DNA of 32,715 nt from Polyangiaceae bacterium (GTDB lineage Bacteria > Myxococcota_A > Polyangia > Polyangiales > Polyangiaceae): NCBI GenBank assembly GCA_020846005.1, contig JADLEQ010000111.1:1-32715 (forward strand). Reading direction: 5' to 3'. A model generated the notes under the pieces. It made no database searches. It was not told the origin of the DNA and was given only the letters and a program-made list of their open reading frames with translations. How positions within the stretch are numbered: position 1 is the stretch's first letter; every line of letters starts with the position of its first letter. Position numbers and translations under genes: made by a program. Of the stretch, positions 9,300 through 30,975 are shown piece by piece.

Positions 9300-9576
9300 G
9301 GTCGCCTCACCGGGGCCCGTCCGCGGCGGGGCACCGCCGGCGGGGAGGCCGGCCGGGCCCCCTCCCCACCCGCCCCGGAGACCGGCGGGCCGCGCGCCCG
9401 GGCGGGCGGGGCGCCGGCGCGGGAGGAGCGCCCGAGCGGCCGAATTCCGACTCGCGAGGTGAGGCGCCGCTTGACGGGGCCGCGACGGCGCGACTACCGT
9501 GGGGCCGCACCCGAGCGCGAGCCCGGACGCACACGCTCGTCCCAGCGTGCAGCGGGGCGGCGCCCCGGATCGGAAG
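9300..9576. other. 277-bp intergenic region, GC-rich inverted repeats and a promoter
   Basis: This is the largest non-coding gap. The first half (9300-9440) is rich in runs such as gccggccggg and cccgggcgggcgg that could fold into hairpins and end transcription from map, but no T-tract is present. The second half holds the candidate promoter at 9471-9500. No small gene with convincing character was seen. Confidence 0.5.
9471..9500 (+). promoter_or_regulatory. Candidate sigma-70-type promoter of the pseudo-Fic gene
   Basis: ttgacg at 9471-9476 and taccgt at 9495-9500 are separated by 18 bp. This is the most canonical -35/-10 pair in the window. It would start transcription near 9507, giving a leader of about 70 nt before the ATG at 9577. 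Confidence 0.4.
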
Positions 9577-11610
9577 ATGGCGGCTGCCAAGAAGCGCAAG
9601 AAGCCTGCGAAGAAGACTTCGAGCTCCGCTCGAACCAAAGCTCGCAAGCCACTGAAGTCAAAGAAGAAATCCACGGGGCGCCGGAGCAAGCCGAGATCGG
9701 CGCCGCGGCCCTCGGGGAAGGCGCGATCACGCGCCGCGCGGCCTCGCGCGGCGGCGAGCCGCCCTGCGGCGAAGCAGCGCCCGAGCGGGGCGAAGGCGCG
9801 GGTGGCGGCCCGCAAGCGCGCCGCGCTGGAGCGCAAGCGACGTGAGCAGGCGCTGCGCGCCAAGCGACGAGAGGCCGCGCGCAAGAAGGCGCTGGCGCTG
9901 CGCAAGAAGCAGGCGGCGCTGAAGGCGCGGAAGGTCGCCGCGCAGCGCGCGAAGCAAGCCGCTGCCTTGCGTAAGCGCGCGGCGCTCGAGCGCGCACGCA
10001 AGGCCGCGCGCGCCCGGCTCGAGAAGGCGCGGGTGGCGGCCCGCCGCAAGGCCGAGCTCGGGCGGAAGGCCGCGCGCGCCGCGGCCTCGAAGGCCAAGGC
10101 CGAGCGCGCGAAGGCGAAGCGCGAAGCCGAGCGGGCCCGCCAGGCCGCGCGGCGCGAGCGCGAGCAGGCCGCCGCGAAGCAGCGGCGCGAGCGCGAGGCC
10201 GCCGCGGCGCTGCGCGCGCGGGCGCTCCAGGCGAAGCTGCGCGCGAAGACGCAGGCCGCCGCGCGCGCCGAGCGCGAGGTCGCGCGCAAGGCGGCTCGGG
10301 CCGCCAAGGAGGCCGCCCGGCAGGCGGCCCGTGAGGCGCGCGAGACCGAGAAGGCGCGGCTCAAGGCCGAGCGCGAGGCCGAGCGCGAGCGCGTCCGCCT
10401 CCAGCGCGAGGCCGAGCGCGAGGAGACGCGCAAGGCGCGCGAGAAGGAGCGGCTCGAAAGGGAGGCCGAGCGCGAGGCGTACCGGAAGGCCCGGGAGGCC
10501 GAGCGCGAGCGGCTCCGCGCCGAGCGCGAGGCGGCCCGCCGCGCGCTCGAGGGCAAGGTGGCCCGCGCCAGCCGCATCGCGGCCCGGGCGGCCCAGAGCG
10601 GGCGCAGCTCGGGCAGGGTCTATCGCCCGTCGATGATCCCGAACCAAGCCGGCACCACCCGCCGCGTCGACGCCGCGGCGTCGCAGCCGACGGCGTCGCA
10701 GCCGTTCGCGTCGTCCGGCCCGCTCGAGCCACCGCCTGAGCTGGCGAGCAGCCCCACCGCGGCGGTCCCTGAACCGCCGGCGCCGGCTCGCCCCGCGCCG
10801 CCGCAGCCCCCCCCTGCCCCCACGCGAGACGCTTCCCCGGAGGCGATCGAGGAGCGCTACGCACGGATCCAGCAGCGGCTGGACGACGCCGGCCCGGATT
10901 TCCGCCGGCAGTACGGCGAGAGCTTCGACATGTCGTGGATCCACCACGACAGCGCGCTCGAGGGGGTCGTGTTCACGTTCCCCGAGCTGAAGATGGCGCT
11001 CGATCCGAGCGTGACGGTCGTCCCCGACTCCAGCTTGCAGCCGGTCTGCGAGGAGATCCGCCGGCACAAGGCCGCGGTGGATCTCGTGCGCGACCTCGGC
11101 GAGAAGCGGCGCGCCTCGCTGACGGTCGACGTGATCAAGAAGATCTTCCTCACGCTGCACCCGGAGGAGGGCGACCTGAAGTCGGTCCGTTACCGCCGGG
11201 ACATCCCGCAGCACCGGCTCTACTTCCACGAGTACTCCGCGCCGGACAAGATCGCCTACAAGGTGCGCCAGGTCGTCGACTGGCTGAGCGGCCCCGAGCC
11301 GAAGAAGCTGCGCTCGCCCGTGCGTATCGCGGCTCGCGTCCACTTCGACCTCGTCCGGGTCTTCCCCTTCCAGACGGACAGCGGCAAGGTGGCGCGCTTG
11401 GTGATGAACCTGGTCCTCCTCCGATCCGGCTATCCTCCCGCGATCATCCACGCCGCTGAGCGGCAGCGCTACTACGAGGCGCTCAAGGGCGCGCTGCCCG
11501 TCCTGGTCTCGATGGTGGGGGAGTCGATCACGAACGCGCTGGCGAGCATCGAGAAGCTGCTCGATGAGCACGAGCACCGCCAGCGCCTGTTCGGCCCGCC
11601 GCCCGCCTGA
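9577..11610 (+). CDS. Histone-like tail / charged helix / degenerate Fic-domain fusion protein
   Basis: 677-residue protein with three parts. Residues 1-95 are extremely rich in Lys, Arg, Ala, Ser and Pro (for example AAAKKRKKPAKKTSSSART), like histone H1 tails, and would bind nucleic acid. Residues about 95-350 form a long, uninterrupted Arg/Glu/Ala/Lys-rich helix, likely a coiled coil or single alpha helix. After a Pro/Ser-rich linker (about 360-425) comes a Fic fold: the inhibitory-helix segment DSALEG (458-463), a YRRD region, and HFDLVRV leading into F596-PFQTDSGK604-VAR then LVMN and SGYPP. The canonical active site HPFx[DE]GNGR has become FPFQTDSGK, so the catalytic His is Phe596 and the phosphate-binding residues are lost. 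AMP transfer is therefore unlikely. The ATG at 9577 begins the basic tail; a GTG at 9499 would overlap the proposed promoter. The gene stands alone. Function is unknown. Confidence 0.85.
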   Translation: MAAAKKRKKPAKKTSSSARTKARKPLKSKKKSTGRRSKPRSAPRPSGKARSRAARPRAAASRPAAKQRPSGAKARVAARKRAALERKRREQALRAKRREAARKKALALRKKQAALKARKVAAQRAKQAAALRKRAALERARKAARARLEKARVAARRKAELGRKAARAAASKAKAERAKAKREAERARQAARREREQAAAKQRREREAAAALRARALQAKLRAKTQAAARAEREVARKAARAAKEAARQAAREARETEKARLKAEREAERERVRLQREAEREETRKAREKERLEREAEREAYRKAREAERERLRAEREAARRALEGKVARASRIAARAAQSGRSSGRVYRPSMIPNQAGTTRRVDAAASQPTASQPFASSGPLEPPPELASSPTAAVPEPPAPARPAPPQPPPAPTRDASPEAIEERYARIQQRLDDAGPDFRRQYGESFDMSWIHHDSALEGVVFTFPELKMALDPSVTVVPDSSLQPVCEEIRRHKAAVDLVRDLGEKRRASLTVDVIKKIFLTLHPEEGDLKSVRYRRDIPQHRLYFHEYSAPDKIAYKVRQVVDWLSGPEPKKLRSPVRIAARVHFDLVRVFPFQTDSGKVARLVMNLVLLRSGYPPAIIHAAERQRYYEALKGALPVLVSMVGESITNALASIEKLLDEHEHRQRLFGPPPA

Positions 11611-24085: not shown

Positions 24086-25510
24086 TCAGGGCAGCTCGGT
24101 CTCCCCCATCAGCCAGCGATCGGCCTCGCGCGCCGCGGAGCGGCCGTCCGCCAGCGCCCAGACGACGAGCGACTGCCCGCGCTGGCAGTCCCCGGCGGCG
24201 AAGACGCCCGGGACGCTGGTCATCCGGGTACGCCGGTCGACGCGGGCGTTGCCGCGGGCATCGAGTGCCACGCCGAGCTGCTCGAGCAGGCCGGCGCGCT
24301 CCGGGCGCACGAAGCCCATCGCGAGCAGGACCAGCTCCGCGGGGATCACGAGCTCCGTCCCCGGCATCCGCTCCGGGCGGCCGCCCACCAGGCGCACCCG
24401 CACCGCGTGGAGGCTGGTTACCGCCCCCCCCTTGCCTTCGAGGCGCTCGGTGAGGATGGAGAACTCCCGCTGGCCGCCCTCCTCGTGGGAGGACGACTCG
24501 CGGTACTGGAGCGGCCACGACGGCCACGGCGTCGTCGGCGAGCGCTCGTCCGGCGGTCGCGGCAGGAGCTCGAGGTTCGTCACGCTGCGGGCGCCCTGGC
24601 GGTGGGCCGTCCCGATGCAGTCGCTCCCGGTGTCCCCACCCCCGATCACGATCACGTGCTTGCCACCGGCGAGGATCGCGGCACCCTCGGGTACTGCGTC
24701 CCCCGCCACGCGGCGGTTCTCCTGTTCGAGGTAGTCCATCGCGAAGTGGACCCCGGCGAGCTCGCGCCCCGGCACCTCCAGGTCGCGCGGGACGCGCGCT
24801 CCGATCGCGAGGACCACCGCGTGGAACCGCTCACGCAGCGCGACCGCGTCGAGATCCCGGCCGACCTCCACGCCCGTCTCGAACCGCACGCCCTCGGCCC
24901 GCATCAGCTCGACGCGCCTCTGGACGACTCGCTTCTCCAGCTTGAAGTCCGGGATGCCATAGGTGAGCAGCCCTCCCAGGCGATCTGCGCGCTCGAAGAC
25001 CGTCACCTCGTGGCCGGCGCGGCGGAGCTGCTGCGCGGCGGAGAGGCCGGCCGGCCCCGACCCGACCACCGCGACGCGGCGCCCCGTCGCGCGGCGCGGC
25101 GGCCGCGGCACGACGAGCCCCGCCTCCCACGCCCGATCGGCGATCGTGCGCTCGATGAGCTTGATCCCGACGGGCTCGGCCCCGATGCCGAGCACGCACG
25201 CCGCCTCGCAGGGCGCCGGACACACGCGCCCCGTCACCTCGGGGAAGCCGTTCGTCGCGTGCAGCAGCGCGCTGGCGTCCGCCTCGCGGCCCTCGTAGCT
25301 CGCGTGGTTCCAGTCGGGGATGAGGTTCCCCAGCGGGCACCCGGTGTTGCAGAAGGGGATCCCGCAGTCCATGCACCGCGCCCCCTCCTGGCGCAGCGCC
25401 TCGGCGGAGATCGGCAGCTCGAGCTCCCGATGGTCCAAGATCCGCAGCTCGGGCGGACGCTTGGCGGCGTCGGTGCGCTCGTACTCGAGGAAGCCGGTGA
25501 TCTTGCCCAC
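24086..25510 (-). CDS. gltD: Glutamate synthase small subunit (GltD)
   Basis: 474-residue NADPH-dependent subunit that passes electrons to GltB for making glutamate from glutamine and 2-oxoglutarate. The N-terminal cluster cysteines C46, C49, C54 and C58 ([16 protein letters not shown]), and C97, C101 and C105 ([11 protein letters not shown]), are present. The FAD motif is [17 protein letters not shown] and the NADPH motif is [15 protein letters not shown], with a closing [18 protein letters not shown]. The length matches the family (about 470-490). Its GTG start lies one base after the gltB stop, so the pair is one operon. The N-terminus [11 protein letters not shown] is typical. Confidence 0.98.
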
Positions 25511-25511
25511 G

Positions 25512-28500
25512 CTACGCCTTCGCCTCCGCGGCCACCACGGCCTCGTGGAGCGGATCCTCGAGGCCCCCCGGCGCGAGGCTCGCCCGGACCTGCTGCTCGA
25601 GCGCCCGCCGGTACTCCACCGGGACGACCTTCACGAATCGCCCGACCGCGGCCTCCCAGGCGCCGAGCAGCTCACGCGCCTTCGGGCTGCGCGTGCGGCG
25701 GACGTGCTCCTCGAGCAGCCGGGCCACCCACGCGGCGTCCTCGCCGTTCAACCCCTCGAGCTCGACCAGCCCCGGGTTCACCCGCTTCTCGAACGCGCCG
25801 TCCTCGTCGAGGACGTACGCGTACCCGCCGCTCATGCCGGCGCCGAAGTTCCTGCCCGTCCGCCCGATGACGAGGACGCGACCGCCGGTCATGTACTCGC
25901 ACCCGTGGTCGCCCACCCCTTCGACGACGGCGACCGCCCCGCTGTTGCGCACGCAGAACCGCTCGCCCGCCATCCCGCTGAAGAACGCCTTGCCGCTCGT
26001 CGCGCCGTAGAGCGCGACGTTGCCGATCAACACGCTCTGATCGGCGCGGAACGTCGCGCCACGCGGCGGCCGTACGGCGAGCGTCCCGCCCGAGAGCCCC
26101 TTGCCGACGTAGTCGTTCGCGTCGCCCTCGAGCGTCAGCTCCATGCCGGCCACGGCGAAGGCGCCGAAGCTCTGCCCGGCCGACCCGTGGAACGACAGCC
26201 GCACCGAGCCCCGCGGCAGCCCGCCCCCGCCGTGGCGCCGCGCGATCTCGCCCGCGAGCATCGCCCCGACCGTGCGCTGCGAGTTGCGGATCGGCAGCTC
26301 GAGCTGCACGTCCACCCCATCCCGGATCGCGGGCTCCGCGCTCGCGATGAGCTCGTGGTCCAGCGCGCCGGCGAGCCCGTGCTCCTGCTCGATCGTCTTG
26401 CACACCTCGACGCCGGGGCGCGCCTCGGCCGGCGCGAGCAAGTCCGAGAAGTCGAGGCGCGCGAGCTTCCAGTGAGTCGACTCGCGGACGCGCAGGCGGT
26501 CCGTCCGGCCCACCATCTCTCGGACGGTGCGGAAGCCGAGCGCCGACATGAGCCGGCGCAGGTGCTCCGCCACGTAGAACATGAAGCGGATCACGTGCTC
26601 GGGCTTCCCGGTGAACCGCTGGCGCAGGACGGGATCCTGGGTCGCCACGCCGACCGGGCAGGTGTTGAGGTGGCACTTGCGCATCATCACGCAGCCGCTC
26701 GCCACGAGCGGCGCGGTCGCGAAGCCGAACTCCTCCGCGCCGAGCAGCGCCGCGATGGCCACGTCCCGCCCGGTGCGGAGCTGGCCGTCGACCTGCAGGA
26801 CGACGCGCGATCGCAGGTCGTTCGCGACCAGCACCTGGTGAGCCTCGGCCAGGCCGAGCTCCCACGGGACGCCCGCGTGCTGGATCGAGGTGAGCGGCGA
26901 CGCGCCCGTCCCCCCGTCGTAACCGGAGACGAGGACCACGTCGGCGTGCGCCTTCGCCACCCCCGCCGCCACCGTGCCGACGCCAGCCTCCGCGACGAGC
27001 TTCACGCTGATCCGCGCCGACGGGCTCACGTTCTTCAGATCGAAGATGAGCTGCGACAGGTCCTCGATCGAGTAGATGTCGTGGTGAGGTGGAGGCGAGA
27101 TGAGGGTCACCCCCGGAGTGGAGTGGCGCGTGCGGGCGATGACCTCGTCCACCTTGTGGCCCGGGAGCTGGCCCCCCTCCCCGGGCTTCGCCCCCTGGGC
27201 GACCTTGATCTGGAGCTCCTCGGCGTTCACCAGGTAGTGAGTCGTGACGCCGAAGCGACCGCTGGCGACCTGCTTGATGGCGCTGCGCCGCCAGTCCCCG
27301 TTCTCGTCGCGGGCGAACCGCTCCGGCCGCTCCCCGCCCTCACCGGTGTTGCTGCGCCCGCCGATGCGGTTCATCGCGACCGCCAGCGTCTCGTGCGCCT
27401 CGGCGCTGATCGAGCCGAAGCTCATCGCGCCCGTGGCGAAACGCTTAACGATCTCGGTCGCCGCCTCGACCTCCTCGAGCGGCACCGGCTCGGCCGCCGG
27501 GACGAGCTCCCAGCCGCTCCGGAGGGTGATCGGCGAGTCGCCCTGCTCGTCGATCGCGCGCGCGTACGCCTCGTAGGAGCCGGAGTCCTCCAGGCGGACC
27601 GCCCGCTGCAGATCCGCGACCACGGCCGGACTCCACAGGTGCCGCTCGCCCTGCACTCGATAGGCATGGACGCCCCCTACGTCGAGGCGGAGCGGCGACG
27701 CGACCCCGCGCGGGTGTGCTCGGGCGTGGCGCCTCCGGATCTCCTCGGCGATCACGTCCAGATCGATCCCGCCGAGCCGCGAGGCGGTGCCGGTGAAGTA
27801 CCGCTCGACCAGCTCCGCCGACAGGCCGATCGCCTCGAAGATCTGCGCCCCCTGGTAGCTCTGCAGGGTGCTGATCCCCATCTTGCTCATCACCTTGAGC
27901 AGGCCCTTGTTCAGCGCCTTGATGTACTTCTGGATGGCCACCGCCGGTTCGGTGACCCCACCGATCGCGCCCTCGGCGACCATCGAACGCAGGCTCTCGA
28001 AGGCGAGATACGGGTTCACCGCGCCCGCGCCGTAGCCGGTGAGGAGACACACGTGGTGCACCTCCCGGGCCTCCCCCGTCTCGACGACGATGCCGACCTT
28101 CATGCGCGTGCCGTTGCGCATGAGGTGGTGATGTACGGCCGCCGTCGCGAGCAGGCTCGGGAGCGGCGCCATGTGCTCGTTGGTGCCGCGGTCGCTCAGG
28201 ATGACCAGCGAGTGGCCATTCAGCACCGCGAGCGATGCGAGCCGACAGAGCTCGTCGAGCGCGCTCTTGAGCCCCGCGGCGCCCTCCGCGACCGGGTAGA
28301 GCAGGGGCAAGGTCGGCGGCACCCGGAAGTGGACGAGGTGCGCGGTGCGGAGCTTGGCGACGTCCTCGTTCGTGAGGATGGGATGCTCCAGCTCGAGCAT
28401 CTGCACCTGGTCCGGCAGCTCGTAGAGGAGGTTCCCCTCGCCGCCGATGTAGCTCTTCAGGCTCATCACCAGCTCCTCGCGGATCGGGTCGATGGCCGGG

Positions 28501-30077
28501 TTGGTGACCTGGGCGAAGTGCTGCTTGAAGTAGTCGAAGAGGAGCGGATCCCGATCGCTCAGCACGGCGAGCGGGACGTCGGTGCCCATCGAGCCGACGG
28601 GCTCCTCCCCCTTCGCCCCCATGGGCCCCACGATCACGCGGAGCGTCTCATCCGTCCACCCGAAGGTGCGATGGCGCACCGTGAGGCTCTCCGGTTCCGT
28701 CCCGGTCGCGGTGGCGGGAGGCGCGTCGATGTCGGCCAGCGCGAGCTTGTTCTCACGGATCCACCGCGCGTAGGGCTTGCGCCGCGCGAGGGTGTCCTTC
28801 AGCTCGTCGTCCTCGACGATCCGGCGCTCGCCCAGATCGACGAGGAACATCCGCCCGGGCTCGAGCCGCCCCTTCCGCTCCACCTGCTCGGGCGGGACGT
28901 CGAGGACGCCCGTCTCCGACGCGAGGACGACGAGGCCGTCACGCGTCGTCATCCATCGCGCGGGGCGCAGTCCGTTCCGGTCGAGCAGGGCGCCGATCAG
29001 GCGGCCGTCCGTGAACGCCAGCGCAGCCGGGCCGTCCCACGGCTCGATCAGGGCGGAGTGGTACTCGTAGAAGGCGCGCCGCGCCTCGGACATCCGCGGA
29101 TCGTTCTGCCACGCCTCGGGGACCAGCATCATCATGACGTGCGGCAGCGAGCGCCCCGCCCGCAGGAGCAGCTCGACGACGTTGTCGAGCTGGGCCGAGT
29201 CGCTCCCGCCGGGCGCGATCGTCGGCAGCAGGTGCCGGAGATCCTCGGCGAAGACGTTGCCGTCGAAGAGCTGCTCGCGCGCCCGCATCCAGGCGGCGTT
29301 GCCGCGCACGGTGTTGATCTCGCCGTTGTGCGCCACGAAGCGGAACGGCTGCGCCAGCTCCCAGGTCGGGAACGTGTTGGTGCTGAAGCGCTGGTGCACG
29401 AGCGCGAGCGCGCTCGCGAAGCTCGGTGCGGCGAGATCCGGGTAGAACGCCACCAGCTGCTCGGCGAGGAGCAGCCCCTTGTAGACCACCGTGCGAGAGG
29501 ACAGGCTCGGGATGTAGAAGCGATCCCGCTCCGTGAGCCCGCTCTCCCGCACCGTGCGCTCCGCCCACTTGCGGATCACGAACAGCTTGCGCTCGAACTT
29601 CTCGGCGTCCCGAACGGCGGAGCCGACGAACACCTGCTTGATCACCGGCGCGCTCGCCCGGGCCATCGGCCCGAGCGCGGACTCGTCCACCGGCACCGTG
29701 CGCCAGCCGAGCAGCTTCTGGCCGACCCCGAAGATCTTGTCCTCCAGGATCTGCTGGCAGCGCCGCTGCTCCTTGGCGCCGCGAGGCAAGAACACCAAGC
29801 CTACGCCGTAGCTGCCGGGCTCCGGGAGGTGGATGCCCTTCTGCGCGCACTCCTCGCGGAGAAAGGCGTCCGGGACCTGCACGAGCAGACCCGCGCCGTC
29901 GCCGGTGAGCGGGTCACAGCCGCACGCGCCCCGGTGCACGAGGTTCAGCAGGATGCCGACGCCCTTCTCGACGATGTCGTGCGTGGGCGCGCCGTCGAGG
30001 CGCGCGACGAACCCCACGCCACAGGCGTCGTGCTCGTTCGTGGGGTCGTACAGGCCTCGGCGAGGCGGCAGCGGCAT
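25512..30077 (-). CDS. gltB: Glutamate synthase large subunit (GltB)
   Basis: 1521-residue glutamate synthase large subunit. After an 18-residue propeptide comes the amidotransferase nucleophile C19 (EHDACGVGF), which becomes the N-terminus after cleavage. Then follow the glutaminase domain, a central domain, the FMN-binding synthase domain ([20 protein letters not shown] and [11 protein letters not shown]), the [3Fe-4S] ligands C1129, C1135 and C1140 ([19 protein letters not shown]), and the C-terminal GXGXG-type beta-helix repeats ([20 protein letters not shown]). The ATG at 30077 has agga 8 nt upstream and gives the expected short propeptide; an ATG at 30140 would add 21 residues. gltD follows immediately. 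Codon use matches the neighbours. Confidence 0.98.
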
Positions 30078-30149
30078 GCGGCGGTCCTGCGGCGCCGGCC
30101 AGGGGGAGCGCGGGCGCGCCGGGCCGACGCGGCGGCTCATGAAGCCACG

Positions 30150-30169
30150 CCTTGACGCGTTGCGCAAGG
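30150..30169. other. Imperfect palindrome between gltB and a divergent lipoprotein gene
   Basis: ccttg (30150-30154) and caagg (30165-30169) flank a partly symmetric centre (acgcgttgcg). It lies in the 154-bp divergent gap, a position suited to an operator controlling gltB. No regulator is adjacent, so this is only a candidate. Confidence 0.3.
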
Positions 30170-30231
30170 GGAATCGTGCCCGGGGGCGCGCGCTGGACTC
30201 TCGGAAGCGGACTCTGCGAAGATGCGCGCCG

Positions 30232-30975
30232 ATGGCCTCGTCAGCTCCGTCCCCTCCGCTCGGTGTCGCGACCGCGCTCGTCGCGGCGCTGCTCGCCTGC
30301 AAGAAAGAAGCGCCGCCGGCGCCGGACCCGCCGCCGCCTCCGCCGGCGGCGTCCGCCGCGACGCGCTGCGGCCCCGGCATCGACGTGGACCCGGGCGCGG
30401 GGGAGTTCAAGCCGGCGGTCACCGCCTTCAAGGACAAGGACTACGCCACCACGCGCCGGCTCCTCGCCACGATGGCGGACAAATACCCGAAGAGCGCGAA
30501 GGTGCGCGTCTGGGCCGGCGACGCCCACCTCTACGAGAAGTCGACCGACGCCGCGGCTGATGCCTCCCTACCCTATTACAAGAGGGCGCTGGAGCTCCAC
30601 GCCGAAGGGTGCCCGCTCGACGAGGTGGAGCACTACTATCTGCTGCTCGGCATCGCGAACGCCTACCTGCGAAAGAGAGACGCGGCCAGCGCCGTCCCGC
30701 ACCTCGAGGACTCCGTCAAGCGCTGGCCCAACAGCGCGCAGGGCTTCTACGTGCTGGCGAGGGCGCAGTGCGGGGCCGGCAACGTCGAGGGCTGCCTCAC
30801 CTCGTTCGAGAAGGCCCTGACGGTCGCGAAGCGCGCGCAGCGCCCGGCGTTCCTGCGCACACACTACTCTCTCGACGACTGGATCCGCATGAGCGCCCGG
30901 CAGTCGGAGTTCGTGAAGTTGCGCCTCAACCCCGGCTACGCGAAGGCGATCCGGGAGGCGAAGAAGGACGACTGA
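30232..30975 (+). CDS. TPR-like lipoprotein
   Basis: 247-residue predicted lipoprotein. The signal ends in ALVAALLAC with C23 as lipidation site, followed by Lys and a Pro/Ala-rich linker. The remainder is helical with TPR-like spacing: FKDKDYATTRRLLATMADKY, PKSAKVRVWAGDAHLYEK, YYKRALELHAEG, YYLLLGIANAYLRKRDAASA, HLEDSVKRWPNSAQGFYVLA and GCLTSFEKALTVAKRA, so a protein-protein scaffold at the membrane is likely. No catalytic motif was seen. It precedes tatB by 84 bp and may be transcribed with the tat genes. The ATG at 30232 is chosen because it starts the signal peptide. Confidence 0.8.
   Translation: MASSAPSPPLGVATALVAALLACKKEAPPAPDPPPPPPAASAATRCGPGIDVDPGAGEFKPAVTAFKDKDYATTRRLLATMADKYPKSAKVRVWAGDAHLYEKSTDAAADASLPYYKRALELHAEGCPLDEVEHYYLLLGIANAYLRKRDAASAVPHLEDSVKRWPNSAQGFYVLARAQCGAGNVEGCLTSFEKALTVAKRAQRPAFLRTHYSLDDWIRMSARQSEFVKLRLNPGYAKAIREAKKDD

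Follow-up and report, generated by a model that had tools for sequence, protein, structure and literature searches.

The window analysed here is a stretch of 32,715 nt from a Polyangiaceae bacterium. Its forward strand contains an open frame at 9577-11610 that encodes a protein of 677 aa, and the third-position GC content of 0.82-0.96 across this frame supports coding throughout. An in-frame GTG is present at 9499, upstream of the ATG at 9577; as this GTG lies inside a promoter-like element, the ATG is the likelier start. The element scores 8/12 and went unreported by a promoter scan with a threshold of 9. The upstream neighbour is a methionine aminopeptidase-type gene (Pfam Peptidase_M24), and the downstream neighbour, in convergent orientation, encodes an outer-membrane efflux domain (TolC-like). 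The frame is the sole Fic match in its own genome (5.7 Mb). Elsewhere in the window, a long open frame of 1611 aa (25320-30155, forward) overlaps another of 1641 aa (25512-30437) on the reverse strand, and a Pfam search of the forward one gave no match. The features of the gene are compiled in Table 1.

Table 1. Features of the Fic-fold gene and its upstream region, in window coordinates
Feature	Position	Strand	Basis
Promoter-like TTGACG-N18-TACCGT upstream of the gene	9471..9500	+	weak consensus match, 8/12
ORF of 677 aa: basic tail, charged helix, Pro-rich linker, Fic-fold domain	9577..11610	+	frame, Pfam, models, composition
H1-like basic tail, residues 1-95; 40% K+R, 24% A, net charge +36; predicted disordered to ~77	9577..9861	+	
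Charged A/R/K/E region, residues 96-345; two long predicted helices, moderate confidence	9862..10611	+	composition, model
Pro-rich linker, residues 346-424; 27% Pro, predicted disordered	10612..10848	+	
Fic-fold domain, residues 424-677, kept across the class	10846..11607	+	Pfam, PDB search, genome searches, model, structure comparison
Remnant of class II inhibitory motif, DSALEG, residues 458-463; E462 = FICD E234, D458 = T230	10948..10965	+	
Flap region PQHRLYFHE, residues 544-552; no beta hairpin in model	11206..11232	+	
Degenerate Fic signature FPFQTDSGKVAR, residues 596-607; F596 = FICD H363, K604 = R371, R607 = R374	11362..11397	+	
RQRYY, residues 629-633; R629 = FICD R396, Y632 = Y399, invariant in 143/143	11461..11475	+	

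The C-terminal part of the protein had been predicted to adopt a Fic fold, and this was borne out by profile search and structure prediction. The Fic family PF02661 is the sole Pfam family found (residues 523-614, 33.3 bits versus a cut-off of 24, E 8.8e-8), and all 122 sequences of the domain alignment match it at E <= 0.001; an NCBIfam search of the 677-aa protein gave nothing above the model cut-offs. A sequence search of the PDB retrieved human FICD with an E value of 4e-20. Residues 406-677 were modelled with AlphaFold2 from the 122 sequences at a mean pLDDT of 95.1 and a pTM of 0.90. Structural comparison of the model with Foldseek and VIA-align placed FICD first (Z 26.6, 256 residues aligned), followed by other Fic proteins, and AvrB was also among the matches (Z 13.1).

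The canonical HPFx[DE]GN[GK]R signature with its catalytic His is absent, i.e. the window protein reads FPFQTDSGK. In the alignment of the PDB sequence search, the motif FPFQTDSGKVAR is placed opposite HPFIDGNGRTSR of FICD, with Phe596 at the position of His363 and with T600, D601, S602, K604 and R607 at the positions of D367, G368, N369, R371 and R374, respectively. The exchanges named in the original prediction (H to F, D to T, G to D, N to S, and R to K) are thus all found in this alignment. In place of the catalytic His, 77 of 143 distinct domains have Phe, 61 have Tyr, four have Trp and one has Ser; none has His. Orthologues with an intact HPFxxGNGR motif would have refuted the prediction; with no His in any of the 143, the claim of a Fic fold that lacks the catalytic residues is strongly supported. 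Judged from these sequences, the His is missing throughout a large orthologous family, and its absence does not set the window gene apart. The position of the metal-binding Asp is variable (K, R, N, T, S or E), whereas P597 and R607 are invariant in the 143 domains, and R540, P597, R607, R629 and Y632 are invariant in the family alignments. The lone member with Ser at the former catalytic site (L092) reads SPFPKHSGK, with the motif at position 171.

FICD variants with single mutations of H363 or D367 have an activity of about 4-6% (PMC4342408). Because both the His and the metal-binding Asp are lost in the family, AMP transfer by the known mechanism is very unlikely. The metal-binding Asp, the motif (anion-hole) Asn and the equivalent of FICD Asn407, which contacts adenine, are not conserved, whereas of the two arginine-type positions Lys604 is largely retained within the class and Arg607 in the whole family; ATP binding in the usual mode is thus doubtful. 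By motif, the family stands outside the catalytic Fic adenylyltransferases; by sequence and structure, it is a Fic-fold family.

The remnant of a class II inhibitory motif, SALEG with E462 and with Asp in place of Ser/Thr, had also been recognised correctly (Table 1). The strict [ST]xxxE[GN] motif is absent from the window protein, in which Glu462 and Gly463 are kept. In the family, position 462 is Glu in 141 of the 143 domains and Asp in two, and position 458 is Asp in 137 and Glu in six, i.e. the Ser/Thr has been replaced. In canonical Fic proteins the inhibitory Glu and the gamma-phosphate compete for the second Arg of the motif (PMC3667792, PMC4342408). The residues of this autoinhibition pair (E234/R374 in FICD and E462/R607 in the window protein, paired by sequence) are both present in 143 of 143 domains, with Glu or Asp at 462.

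The flap region differs in its degree of conservation. In the class, P544, H546, R547 and Y549 are found in 123 of 123 sequences and H551 in 122, and this invariant H-R-x-Y-x-H string of Polyangia is situated where the flap hairpin is expected. DSSP assigned no strands to the AlphaFold2 model, including the flap region, and the beta hairpin of canonical Fic proteins thus appears to be missing from the modelled structure. In the 20 sequences from outside the class, Y549 is the only near-constant flap residue (19 of 20), and K604 is mostly lost.

The domain was detected by profile search in 279 of the 290 genomes of the class and, at E <= 1e-10, in 170 of the 184 genomes of the order, and the family is mostly single-copy and near-universal in both. 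In a phylum-wide sample, 182 of 379 genomes match, a number that includes weak matches (~1e-7 to 1e-21) from genomes in which those Fic proteins that were checked have a canonical motif. Members confirmed by motif outside the class belong to six families (f39, f47, f49, f58, f60 and f67). A collection of named genomes contributed 32 loci, in records labelled Polyangiaceae, Sorangium, Labilithrix, Byssovorax, Myxococcales/Myxococcota or uncultured delta/proteobacteria, including one short fragment (L063) that has no profile match. These labels suggest that the window belongs in or near Polyangiaceae, and thus to the class Polyangia. In three genomes of family f3 (G005, G007 and G009) the match to the domain is split in two although the frame is continuous, and this suggests that about 30-50 aa have been inserted ahead of the flap region. 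A search of viral contigs with one narrow pattern retrieved no relative; the plasmid matches had <30% identity among the matches listed and are annotated as Fic family proteins, the motifs of which were not inspected.

For comparison, canonical Fic proteins of Myxococcota were used as controls. All 27 read HP[FY]xDGNGRxxR, and 22 of them have an upstream [ST]xxxE[GN] motif; as the controls were chosen by motif from 30 loci, these counts describe the control set and not a rate. On a maximum-likelihood tree, a single branch with a support of 100/99, present in all 200 bootstrap trees, separates the His-less proteins from the others. All 27 controls are outside the His-less clade, and the label His-less versus canonical requires one change on the tree. 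The branches among the canonical rows are long, so that the tree singles out no nearest canonical relative. The median dN/dS value is 0.07, ranging from 0.02 to 0.18 (51 close pairs, which are not independent), and the family is hence under strong purifying selection. It seems that strong selection has preserved an enzyme fold for a new, putative role. A toxin-antitoxin or mobile-element gene is not favoured, because the family is near-universal and mostly single-copy. Most work on Fic proteins concerns mobile toxins or effectors whose distribution is scattered. A Fic fold that is fixed in nearly every genome of a class, with the catalytic His lost and the Glu/Arg pair kept, is an unusual natural pseudoenzyme in the superfamily.

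The N-terminal part of the protein is variable in the family. In the model of the whole protein (pLDDT 70), residues 1-77 are disordered, 78-203 and 222-338 are helical (moderate confidence), and a disordered linker leads to the Fic fold. The postulated charged helix of about 250 residues is represented by these two modelled helices; in residues 96-345, K, R, A and E make up 82% of the residues, and the net charge is +52. The tail (residues 1-95) matches no Pfam or NCBIfam model. Its designation as H1-like is backed by its composition and by similar starts in relatives and related genera (MAAKKTRK..., MAARKKK...), but the tail cannot serve as a defining trait of the family, as it is limited to one branch. 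The ancestral-like form is compact, with about 240-280 aa, and has no tail; outside the tailed groups, the start of the frame is usually no more than about 20-140 aa away from the domain, L083 (261 aa) being among the exceptions. The label "tail" requires three changes on a tree of 72 domains. Together with the tail-less frames, this shows that the tail is lineage-specific and was added later, inside the window's family, where it was probably also lost. A search for similar tails elsewhere in the window's own genome returned just the gene itself, a result of little weight, since sequences of this kind may be affected by compositional-bias filters.

The best explanation, to which we assign a probability of about 50%, is a selected pseudo-Fic protein, in which the inhibitory helix would now belong permanently to the fold and the cleft would be reused for binding. 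This reading rests on the finding that the Glu/Arg pair is among the best-kept parts of a protein from which the catalyst is gone. This Fic-fold family of Myxococcota, passed on vertically and usually present as a single copy, would have lost the AMP-transfer chemistry early and been retained for a binding or regulatory task. The inhibitory helix would be docked permanently, as a structural part. The former nucleotide cleft, presumably remodelled in Polyangia by the H-R-x-Y-x-H string and the K-x-x-R pair, may hold and report either a small anionic molecule or a protein partner. One ligand shared throughout the phylum is doubtful, because most sequences from outside the class lack the flap signature and Lys604. 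For the window's family, we infer from the composition of the tail and from the precedent of CarD with its HMGA-like tail that the H1-like tail would bind DNA and keep the Fic domain on the nucleoid. As the tail-less majority could not be tethered in this way, tethering would at most be a lineage-specific addition. Fic proteins with a degenerated motif or without a flap have been suggested by Goepfert et al. to have probably taken on new functions (PMC3667792).

The most serious alternative is an active enzyme with a different chemistry, i.e. a Fido fold that does not use the signature His. AvrB, which was among the structural matches of our model, is a Fido protein with a divergent motif that can act as a glycosyltransferase (PMC10866546). 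In Polyangia, a relocated active site might be built from H546/H551, R547, D458/E462 and R607. The class has gained four invariant polar flap residues under a low dN/dS value, and H546, R547, Y549 and H551 would suit an active site as well as a binding site. However, most families outside the class have other residues at these flap positions, so that the presumed catalytic set is not family-wide, and the fold is closer to FICD than to AvrB. A relocated active site throughout the phylum is rejected on account of these replacements, and one within the class is possible; overall, we regard a different chemistry as possible but doubtful. A more far-reaching proposal, that in the core family of the class the site has moved from the signature His to the flap H-R-x-Y-x-H string, with an undescribed Fido chemistry or mode of nucleotide sensing, and that one family is coupled to the nucleoid via the H1-like tail, is rather unlikely.

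The second alternative is a pure structural or protein-binding scaffold, in which the cleft would be closed and empty and conservation would reflect the fold and one partner surface. The changes at the anion-hole Asn, the metal-binding Asp and the Asn407 position are compatible with it, and so is the inhibitory pair, since in FICD the Glu and the gamma-phosphate are rivals for the Arg (PMC4342408) and a permanently docked pair would block ATP. Yet the conserved positions cluster in the flap region and in what was the active site, beyond the requirements of a bare scaffold, which makes this explanation improbable. A normal Fic gene that has decayed locally or been sequenced wrongly is refuted as an explanation by the replacement of the His in all orthologous domains, frames that are intact in most genomes, the low dN/dS value and the separate, well-supported clade.

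The family resembles several known systems in some respects and differs from them in others. With FICD/HYPE and class II Fic proteins it shares the fold over about 250 residues, the Glu of the inhibitory helix, the second Arg of the motif and conserved equivalents of R396, Y399 and Y400. In contrast to FICD, the catalytic His, the metal-binding Asp, the anion-hole GN and the first Arg are replaced, the inhibitory Ser/Thr is Asp or Glu, the model has no flap hairpin, and neither a TPR nor a membrane anchor is present. Like AvrB, the family has the Fido fold but no HPFx[DE]GNGR motif. AvrB, however, is a secreted effector of a plant pathogen and a rhamnosyltransferase, which modifies a protein without a divalent metal (PMC10866546), and the likeness is confined to the fold. 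Degenerate clades are also known among Fic/Doc proteins, i.e. Doc D2 with Gln in place of the His and F3 with a changed motif, and other functions are suspected for them (PMC4454073). These are likewise natural groups that depart from the signature, but Doc D2 keeps the NKR part, whereas the family described here keeps only P, F, G and the last Arg, has an aromatic residue in place of the His, and, in contrast to D2 and F3, is near-universal in one bacterial class.

A Fic domain joined to a DNA-binding part, which is putative here and based on the composition of the tail, is known from CbFic2 of Coxiella burnetii. CbFic2 has an intact HPFDDGNGR motif, is active on histone H3 and carries a C-terminal HTH as its DNA-binding part (PMC10628234), whereas the window protein has a degenerate motif and an H1-like tail. 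The myxobacterial precedent is CarD, in which a compact domain is joined to an HMGA-like DNA-binding tail (PMC4374960). As in CarD and the tail-less CdnL of Myxococcus xanthus, a compact domain occurs alone or fused to an unfolded basic tail, and the window tail is of the CarD type in being an unfolded region rich in K/R/A/P, as judged from composition and predicted disorder (residues 1-77). The domains are unrelated, that of CarD being an RNA polymerase-binding domain, and the tail of CarD is C-terminal and HMGA-like. A literature search for Fic pseudoenzymes or for Fic proteins in Sorangium found no description of the family, which is no proof of absence. The family makes a role of the Fic fold without AMP transfer directly testable, with tailed and tail-less orthologues for comparison.

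The gene neighbourhoods were considered as a source of functional information and rejected, because the neighbours differ by lineage and no operon partner can therefore be named. Neighbour names other than those identified with Pfam were assigned by reading the sequence. The methionine aminopeptidase and TolC-like neighbours are conserved in the window's branch only, and other families of the order have histidine kinase and thioredoxin-like neighbours. In Sorangium and near relatives (L045-L050 etc.), a long TPR protein-kinase-like gene is found about 4-5 kb upstream on the same strand. An IlvE-like neighbour is present in f49 and f60. RsmH/FtsI-like genes of a division cluster adjoin in about ten loci of the class (L154, L158, L161, L162 and L164-L169; upstream, opposite strand). 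A RibA (GTP cyclohydrolase II)-like gene is situated directly 3' in 15 loci (L164, L165, L167, L168, L176, L178, L182 and L185-L192), which belong to f18 of the class and to f39, f47 and f67 outside it, and this is the deepest conserved linkage that was seen.
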